A stretch of DNA of 41,358 nucleotides, taken from contig DXAW01000043.1 of assembly GCA_019116865.1 (NCBI GenBank), positions 1-41,358 of the forward strand. The letters run 5' to 3'. The DNA comes from Candidatus Coprenecus stercoravium. GTDB taxonomy: Bacteria > Bacteroidota > Bacteroidia > Bacteroidales > UBA932. The translations under genes and the position numbers were made by a program. Below the pieces are notes generated by a model, which saw only the letters and a list, made by a program, of their open reading frames with translations, was not told the DNA's origin and ran no database searches. Shown piece after piece: positions 39,213-41,358 of this stretch; position 1 is the stretch's first letter; every line of letters starts with the position of its first letter.

Positions 39213-40421
39213 ATGCGTAAAATACCTTTTTCGCCTCCAGATATGACGGAGGCCGAGTTCGCGATGGTAAAAGAAGTACTGGCTTCTGGATGGATTACCA
39301 CCGGACCGAAAACTAAGGAATTTGAACATCTGATAGCGACCTATTGCAATACACAACAAGCTGTATGTCTCAATTCTGCCACTGCTTGCATGGAGATGGC
39401 GCTGCGGGTGCTGGGCATAGGTACTGGTGACGAAGTAATCGTACCGGCCTATACCTATACGGCTACGGCCAGTTCAGTGTGCCATGTGGGTGCAAGACCT
39501 GTGATGGTGGATTGTACTCCTGGGAGTTATGAGATGGATTACACCAAAGTAGCAGAAGCGATAAATGAAAAAACCAAGGCAGTGATGCCGGTGGATCTTG
39601 GCGGAGTGGTTTGTGACTACGACAGGATATATGAGGCGGTCGAGTCTAAAAAAGCACTCTTCAGACCGGCGAATGATATCCAGAAGGCATACGGAAGGCC
39701 AGCGGTGATAGCCGATGCAGCCCATGCTTTCGGGGCCAGGCGGCACGGGAAGATGTGCGGTTCGATAGCAGACTTTACCTCGTTCTCGTTCCATGCGGTG
39801 AAGAATCTGACTACGACTGAGGGTGGGGCGCTGACATGGCGCTCTCATGAAGGACTGGACGACGACGCGGTCTATAAGCAGATTCAGTTGCTGTCGCTGC
39901 ACGGTCAGAGCAAGGATGCGCTGGCCAAGACTCAGCTAGGTGCCTGGGAGTACGACATCGTCGCGCCGTACTACAAGTGCAACATGACAGACATCATGGC
40001 CGGTATCGGTCTAGCTCAATTCAAAAGATACCCGGAACTGCTGCACCGCCGCCGTCAGATTATTGAGGCGTATAATAAAAGATTACATGACTACGATGTG
40101 AATGTATTGAATCATTTCGGACCGAATCATTCATCCTCCGGGCACTTGTATTTGGTGCGTCTCCTCGGCAAGGATGTGGACTACCGAAACGATGTGATAG
40201 TCAGGATGGCCGAGCGCGGCATCGCCTGCAACGTGCACTATAAGCCGCTTCCGATGATGACAGCCTACAAGGACCTCGGCTACGACATCAAATATTTTCC
40301 CAATGCCTACGACCAGTACCGCTGCGAGGTAACACTCCCGCTGCACACCCATCTGAACGACGAAGACGTGCAGTATGTCATGGACAATTTTACAGACATA
40401 ATCTCAACACTAAAAAGGTGA
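39213..40421 (+). CDS. Second DegT/DnrJ/EryC1 aminotransferase
   Basis: 402 aa; [89 protein letters not shown]. Confidence 0.92.
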   Translation: MRKIPFSPPDMTEAEFAMVKEVLASGWITTGPKTKEFEHLIATYCNTQQAVCLNSATACMEMALRVLGIGTGDEVIVPAYTYTATASSVCHVGARPVMVDCTPGSYEMDYTKVAEAINEKTKAVMPVDLGGVVCDYDRIYEAVESKKALFRPANDIQKAYGRPAVIADAAHAFGARRHGKMCGSIADFTSFSFHAVKNLTTTEGGALTWRSHEGLDDDAVYKQIQLLSLHGQSKDALAKTQLGAWEYDIVAPYYKCNMTDIMAGIGLAQFKRYPELLHRRRQIIEAYNKRLHDYDVNVLNHFGPNHSSSGHLYLVRLLGKDVDYRNDVIVRMAERGIACNVHYKPLPMMTAYKDLGYDIKYFPNAYDQYRCEVTLPLHTHLNDEDVQYVMDNFTDIISTLKR

Positions 40422-41008
40422 AACGGATTTTCGACATCATAATTAGCGGATTAGGACTACTTATTCTTAGTCCGCTTTTTTTAATTCTTGCTATTTGGAT
40501 TAAATACGACTCTCCTGGACCTGTTTTCTATCGTCAAACCAGAGTCGGAAAAAACAACAAAGACTTTCGTATATTCAAATTCCGGTCTATGAAAATTGGC
40601 TCTGACAAATTGGGTCTAATCACTGTCGGCGGCCACGATCCACGAGTAACAACGTCGGGATATTACATAAGAAAATACAAACTTGATGAACTACCACAAC
40701 TCATAAACGTATTCATCGGTGATATGAGCCTGGTGGGTCCCAGACCTGAAGTTCGTAAATATGTTGACATGTATAACTCCGAACAACTTCACGTCCTAGA
40801 CGTCCGTCCCGGTATTACCGACATGGCTTCAATCCGATATAGAAATGAAAATGAGATTCTTGAGCAAGCAAAGAATCCCGAAAAATACTACTGCGATGTC
40901 ATCATGCAAGACAAACTTCGCATCAATCTTGAATACGTATCCCACCACACATTCTTAGGAGACATAAAAATTATAGTGCAAACTCTGAAAACAATAATCA
41001 CAAAATAA
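40418..41008 (+). CDS. Initiating phosphoglycosyl transferase, PglC/WcaJ catalytic-domain type
   Basis: 196 aa; KRIFDIIISGLGLLILSPLFLILAIWIKYDSPGPVFYRQTRVGKNNKDFRIFKFRSM, KYKLDELPQLINVFIGDMSLVGPRPEV, RPGITDMASIRY. Confidence 0.93.
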   Translation: MKRIFDIIISGLGLLILSPLFLILAIWIKYDSPGPVFYRQTRVGKNNKDFRIFKFRSMKIGSDKLGLITVGGHDPRVTTSGYYIRKYKLDELPQLINVFIGDMSLVGPRPEVRKYVDMYNSEQLHVLDVRPGITDMASIRYRNENEILEQAKNPEKYYCDVIMQDKLRINLEYVSHHTFLGDIKIIVQTLKTIITK

Positions 41009-41024
41009 GAAAGGTGATAAAACG

Positions 41025-41055
41025 AAAAAAGACCAGCGGAAAACTGGTCTTTTTT
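41025..41055. terminator. Bidirectional intrinsic terminator between the polysaccharide operon and tRNA-Ala
   Basis: AAAAAAGACCAG (41025-41036), loop CGGAAAA, CTGGTCTTTTTT (41044-41055); 12 bp perfect stem with A- and T-tracts. Confidence 0.85.
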
Positions 41056-41059
41056 GTTG

Positions 41060-41133
41060 TGGAGAGCAAGGGAGTCGAACCCTTGACCTCCTGCTTGCAA
41101 GGCAGGCGCTCTAGCCAACTGAGCTAGCCCCCC
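41060..41133 (-). tRNA. tRNA-Ala (TGC)
   Basis: Reverse complement GGGGGGCTAGCTCAGTTGGCTAGAGCGCCTGCCTTGCAAGCAGGAGGTCAAGGGTTCGACTCCCTTGCTCTCCA; anticodon loop CTTGCAA, G3-U70 pair in the acceptor stem. Confidence 0.95.
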
Positions 41134-41165
41134 AATAAAAAAATTCAGCCCTTTGACACTGAATG

Positions 41166-41239
41166 TAGTCCCGAGCGGACTTGAACCGCTGACCCCTACA
41201 TTATCAGTGTAGTGCTCTAACCAACTGAGCTACGGGACT
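41166..41239 (-). tRNA. tRNA-Ile (GAT)
   Basis: Reverse complement AGTCCCGTAGCTCAGTTGGTTAGAGCACTACACTGATAATGTAGGGGTCAGCGGTTCAAGTCCGCTCGGGACTA; anticodon GAT. Confidence 0.95.
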
Positions 41240-41315
41240 GAATAATATTACAAAAAATAATAGCATCCGGGTGAAAAAGGAGAGAAATAATCTCCAACCG
41301 ATCGGAAAGCTCCAA

Positions 41316-41358
41316 AAAGGAGGTGTTCCAGCCACACCTTCCGGTACGGCTACCTTGT
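41316..41358 (-). rRNA. 16S rRNA, 3' end only (gene continues past the window)
   Basis: Reverse complement ACAAGGTAGCCGTACCGGAAGGTGTGGCTGGAACACCTCCTTT is the conserved 16S 3' terminus with anti-SD. Confidence 0.95.

Follow-up and report, generated by a model that had tools for sequence, protein, structure and literature searches.

Does the rRNA unit at the end of this DNA truly stop after its second tRNA gene, or is the missing 23S gene the product of a faulty assembly? The window, the whole stretch of DNA analysed (41,358 bp), is the entire contig C28 of assembly G000, a Candidatus Coprenecus stercoravium MAG of 149 contigs and 82% completeness. As the window is the whole contig and ends inside 16S, only the 3' terminal 43 nt of the 16S rRNA gene are present (41316-41358, minus strand, ACAAGGTAGCCGTACCGGAAGGTGTGGCTGGAACACCTCCTTT), the remainder lying beyond the contig end. 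The cut 16S 3' end reads ...GGCTGGAACACCTCCTTT. It is followed on the minus strand by the 16S trailer (41244-41315), the predicted 3' arm of the 16S processing stem given its pairing with the solitary-type 16S leaders described below. A tRNA-Ile(GAU) gene (41165-41239, minus strand) and a tRNA-Ala(UGC) gene (41059-41133, minus strand) come next, both identified by ARAGORN and by Rfam RF00005 (73.3 and 68.6 bits, respectively). The tRNA-Ala gene is the last of the unit. Three nucleotides after it lies a predicted intrinsic terminator with a 12-bp stem (41025-41055, minus strand), whose hairpin is AAAAAAGACCAG-TTTTCCG-CTGGTCTTTTTT. This stretch folded at -17.1 kcal/mol compared to a shuffle mean of -4.2 (z = -7.2) and 0 of 200 shuffles were as good. 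With an A run as well as a T run, the terminator can act for the convergent gene too. That gene marks the boundary and is outside the unit; it encodes a phosphoglycosyl transferase (bacterial sugar transferase; 40418-41008, plus strand; PF02397 Bac_transf, E 2.7e-60). A sequence-only reading had described 16S 3' end, tRNA-Ile, tRNA-Ala and a 12-bp terminator within 4 nt, in that minus-strand order, and a convergent phosphoglycosyl transferase gene with its 3' end at 41008. ARAGORN, Rfam and folding agreed on the former and the PF02397 match bore out the latter.

No rRNA gene was found at the Rfam threshold anywhere in the 41-kb window, the 43-nt 16S stub being too short to match. In a standard linked Bacteroidales operon the 23S gene begins within about 0.1-0.5 kb of tRNA-Ala, whereas the window has a terminator 3 nt after that gene and no 23S. 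rRNA genes are classed as unlinked when more than 1500 bp separates 16S and 23S or when no 23S lies within 1500 bp (PMC7761764, PMC8178347). In the window 23S is absent over 41.3 kb downstream.

Such a junction could arise as an assembly chimera, if a repeat had caused a false join between the 16S-Ile-Ala end and an unrelated polysaccharide locus while the 23S gene really followed tRNA-Ala. The MAG is fragmented, its contig ends in 16S and rRNA regions are common points of misassembly. The sequence-only reading had countered that a repeat-induced misassembly would more likely break inside 16S. This argument is weak because contig C28 itself ends inside 16S, and it is the comparative evidence that decides. 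NCBI assigns the genus to Bacteroidales, and its GTDB family is UBA932. The family (f1 in the sampling) comprised 26 genera among 150 genomes sampled. In 49 family genomes from 13 genera a tRNA-bearing 16S end ((Ile)-Ala) was followed by 1.5 kb or more of sequence lacking 23S. A simple terminator scan gave a hit behind the last tRNA in 44 of the 48 family genomes scanned, some of these hits being weak or 30-85 nt away. Among tRNA-bearing linked loci from other families it gave a hit in 1 of 23. Nine other Coprenecus genomes have a hairpin-T-run terminator after the Ile-Ala pair, followed by protein genes which mostly differ between species. Terminators at this place in relatives are not identical in sequence. 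The MAGs of most relatives are likewise fragmented and break at the same point, but the junction was also present in two single-contig genomes (G028 and G092). A misjoin would not be expected to recur with non-identical terminators and different neighbours in many independent assemblies, and the chimera is left with hardly any probability. The comparison of the locus in related genomes that had been proposed thus came down on the side of a genuine unlinked unit, as the earlier reading had favoured. The 16S-Ile-Ala end is a genuine operon end and an inherited gene layout, not an assembly error, and the split-operon layout is old and common to the family.

Outside the family, a 23S gene was found within 1.5 kb of the 16S end at 24 of 30 Bacteroidales loci, in keeping with the earlier statement that typical Bacteroidota operons continue to 23S. 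Four of the remaining loci were cut by contig ends and two were without 23S. Chance was rejected as an explanation for the layout by the order-level control. The two loci without 23S (G246:C5, L262, and G175:C5, L272) have 16S-tRNA-Ile with no 23S within 1.5 kb, and unlinked rRNA may have had more than one origin within Bacteroidales. The G246 genome is only 1.2 Mb. A number of other variants were seen among the rRNA loci. Several species have two tRNA-Ala genes on the solitary 16S unit (L202, L230, L231, L233, and L017). A linked operon on G231:C119 (L288:834-1147) has, in the spacer separating its tRNA-Ala and 23S genes, three tRNA-like copies that score equally and recur every 119 nt. In G019:C78:12276-12307 (L193) the 16S 3' end reads GGTTGGAATATCTCC, not GGCTGGAACACCTCC, beside the anti-Shine-Dalgarno region, which may reflect a pseudogene, an error or a real variant.

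The 23S genes of the genus were then located with a degenerate 23S 5'-end pattern. A 23S 5' end was present in 8 of 19 genus genomes, including contig C78 of the window's own assembly, where Rfam confirmed it (region 1-494). Rfam family searches of the own genome for 16S and 23S had returned nothing, RF02541 missing this 5' end, which was found by the pattern search and cmscan; a negative rRNA result of that search on partial genes is not safe. No 16S or tRNA gene was found upstream of the eight copies in the stretch examined. The 23S search of the own genome, also suggested by the earlier reading, therefore yielded a 23S gene elsewhere, with an upstream region of its own. Promoters of Bacteroidota carry a -33 TTTG element. 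Upstream of the 23S on C78 were a promoter, TTTG-N19-TATATTTG, and protein genes, not the tRNA-Ala that a misjoined window would require. The promoter form described for Bacteroidota is TAnnTTTG (PMC6414381). In 36 of the 38 family genomes with enough upstream sequence, counted by hand from a regular-expression table, a promoter of this kind stood 160-450 nt ahead of the solitary 23S copy. Six linked copies (G028, G092, and G022) had no such promoter between 16S and 23S. A complete leader-23S-5S-terminator unit is present in a congener (G014:C24). In the window's species, a fragmented MAG whose contig ends in 16S, no single contig spans promoter to terminator. Two family genomes with tRNA-Ala before tRNA-Ile upstream of 23S (L153 and L165) were set aside as probable contaminant contigs, since they depart from the rest in tRNA order as well as in the start of 23S.

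Both halves of the split lie on one contig in 13 genomes, always 16S then 23S and on the same strand. The gaps are 7.5, 7.7, 12.2, 12.6, 15.7, 16.2, 16.5, 29.4, 30.5, 46.6, 105, 109, and 112 kb, those of 7.5 and 7.7 kb (G153 and G094) belonging to a tRNA-free second split of genus g15. The gap genes in G049, G066, G052, G069, and G083 encode a GT2 glycosyltransferase, a SpoIID-domain protein, an AmpG-like permease, NamZ, PepT, and OPT. AlaX-like and ZIP genes are sometimes also held in this block. Other genera, and Coprenecus too, carry genes of the block ahead of their solitary 23S. On contig C78 most of it lies next to the 23S, on the upstream side (GT, SIMPL, AlaX-like, PepT, ZIP, and OPT). 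As several genera share this block, separate insertions in the individual species were rejected. The Coprenecus halves are farther apart. In G005 the contig with the 23S includes 238 kb of upstream sequence, and none of the reported 16S-Ile-Ala matches falls on that contig. The second split of genus g15 (L239, G094:C14 1-7884; L260, G153:C5; L238, G032:C36) has a tRNA-free 16S end with a terminator directly after it, which reads GGCCGAAGAAGTGATTTCTTCGGCCTTTTTTT in L239. Five genes separate this terminator from a 23S about 7.5 kb on in G094 and G153. A promoter is present upstream of that 23S in L239 (G094:C14).

The single contigs G028 and G092 each encode three 16S and three 23S genes, arranged as two linked tRNA-free operons, one solitary 16S-Ile-Ala-terminator unit, and one solitary 23S-5S unit. 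These relatives thus combine linked and unlinked copies in one genome. Their linked spacers are tRNA-free and about 250-300 nt long, and tRNA-Ile(GAU) was found at high identity only on the solitary 16S unit. A GGTTCAAGTCCC stretch resembling a tRNA T arm is retained in the linked spacers (L173:18004-18298 and L176), possibly the scar of a deleted tRNA. Their 16S leaders are of two classes, solitary (GTTCTTTGATAGCAT...GGTAGAGG) and linked (GGAAGACAAGTACAA...GAGTAGAGCGTT). Both leader classes are present in Coprenecus genomes. In the window's own assembly C65 ends in a solitary-type promoter and on C93 a leader of the linked type runs into 16S, with no contig spanning 16S to 23S. The promoters of solitary 16S and solitary 23S are nearly identical in Coprenecus.

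All rRNA operons of the species could instead be unlinked, with no linked copy, as in Buchnera or Wolbachia. Among the 19 genomes of the genus, none of the contigs showed a 16S joined to a 23S, and the second split in genus g15 would fit such a state. Against this, the second 16S leader on C93 belongs to the class that precedes the linked operons in G028 and G092. The collapsed 23S contig of G014 begins at the point at which, in the closed genomes, the solitary leader and the linked spacer part ways, and congeners have several 5S flanks per genome, up to three. An entirely unlinked set is therefore considered unlikely. From the C93 leader class, the 5S flanks, and the start of the G014 contig, the window's own species likely also has linked, tRNA-free operons. 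The window unit is probably one split operon among others and not a sign of a general loss of linkage.

A further possibility is that the unit is a decaying rRNA remnant retained only for its tRNAs. G022, a single contig with two linked operons, shows that the 16S of the unit can be lost. Here the Ile-Ala pair stands alone without 16S and is followed by the conserved GT-to-OPT block and then a linked 16S-23S (G022:C1:994826-1014500; L311:9827-10042 and L312), an apparent secondary loss of the solitary 16S. The solitary 16S genes of G028 and G092, however, are full length and score like the linked copies (1508.4 and 1513.4 bits compared to 1506.7 and 1513.4, respectively), and promoter and processing stem are conserved. 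Decay is accordingly very unlikely.

The processing stems were assessed by pairing tests in which the shuffles preserved base composition only. By this measure the window 16S trailer pairs with solitary-type leaders from five congeners at -55 to -62 kcal/mol (z -5.7 to -7.3). It showed no pairing with two leaders from its own assembly, the linked-type leader on G000:C93 (z 0.5) and that of the 23S (z 0.7). Pairing in G014 was confined to each half, at z -7.8 between the leader and trailer of the solitary 16S and at z -3.8 between those of the 23S, and none occurred across the halves. The G004 trailer failed to pair with a leader located on a different contig. The predicted folds indicate that each half would keep a closed processing stem of its own. 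The leader motif GTTCWTTGA may be read as boxA-like.

We are highly confident that the window holds the end of the 16S half of a split rRNA operon, with 23S-5S forming a separate transcription unit elsewhere in the genome. The 16S half would consist of promoter, 16S, tRNA-Ile, tRNA-Ala, and terminator. The other half would consist of a Bacteroidota-type promoter, leader, 23S, 5S, and terminator, with its 5' part on C78 and a complete copy in G014. Each half would have its own promoter, boxA-like GTTCWTTGA leader motif, processing stem, and terminator, so that neither would need the other in cis. Subunit balance would be kept in trans by the similar promoters. In the family ancestor the block GT2 glycosyltransferase-SpoIID-AmpG-like permease-NamZ-PepT-OPT probably came between tRNA-Ala and 23S, and the gap would later have grown or shrunk. 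The other operon copies would stay linked as 16S-23S-5S without spacer tRNAs, which would make the 16S half the only evident source of tRNA-Ile(GAU). The anatomy, conservation, partner unit, promoters, predicted pairing, and same-strand split pairs are all read from DNA sequence. Separate transcription of the two units is predicted from the promoter and terminator of each, and termination and processing in the cell likewise stand as predictions. The split may also be functional. As both tRNAs are only on the solitary 16S unit, which has its own leader type, the cell might set 16S with tRNA-Ile(GAU)/tRNA-Ala(UGC), 23S-5S, and whole operons separately, as a family-wide form of rRNA control. This suggestion is tentative and rather doubtful.

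A conserved split beside linked operons extends unlinked rRNA to ordinary-sized gut genomes and to a gut Bacteroidales family. The family offers a natural series of states, namely a split beside linked copies, a second split, and, in closed genomes, re-lost forms. Amplicon methods based on 16S-ITS-23S would miss the solitary unit. Binned 16S genes that carry tRNAs but lack 23S should not be thrown out as misassemblies.

Unlinked rRNA genes are known, with 574 unlinked and 270 mixed genomes among 15,521 (PMC7761764) and further accounts available (PMC8172020, PMC8178347). They have been tied mainly to symbionts with reduced genomes (PMC7761764). Unlinked rRNA is reported as not detected in the human gut (cited in PMC8178347), and the word Bacteroidetes is absent from the main text of PMC7761764. 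In the searchable literature, with the main ISME J 2020 survey lying outside the search, no report of unlinked or split rRNA in this family was found. The taxon and layout appear to be unreported there. By its sequence features the unit would belong with unlinked rRNA genes, in a lineage of mixed type whose layout is distinctive and inherited. It shares the 16S end, the two tRNAs, and their order with the standard Bacteroidales 16S-Ile-Ala-23S-5S operon but has a terminator after tRNA-Ala and no 23S. Like the unlinked genes of Buchnera and Wolbachia (PMC7761764, PMC8172020), 16S and 23S-5S are separate units more than 1500 bp apart. Unlike those, the split falls after tRNA-Ala, the halves keep order and strand, linked copies coexist, and one gene block lies in the gap across the genera of the family. 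The family genomes are mostly those of gut bacteria of 1.5-3.6 Mb, unlike the reduced symbionts. The 'mixed' genome of Cellulosilyticum lentocellum (PMC8178347) likewise has linked and unlinked copies in one genome. In the family, by contrast, the tRNAs are only on the solitary 16S unit, the linked spacers are tRNA-free, the 16S leader types are distinct, and the pattern is common to a whole family.
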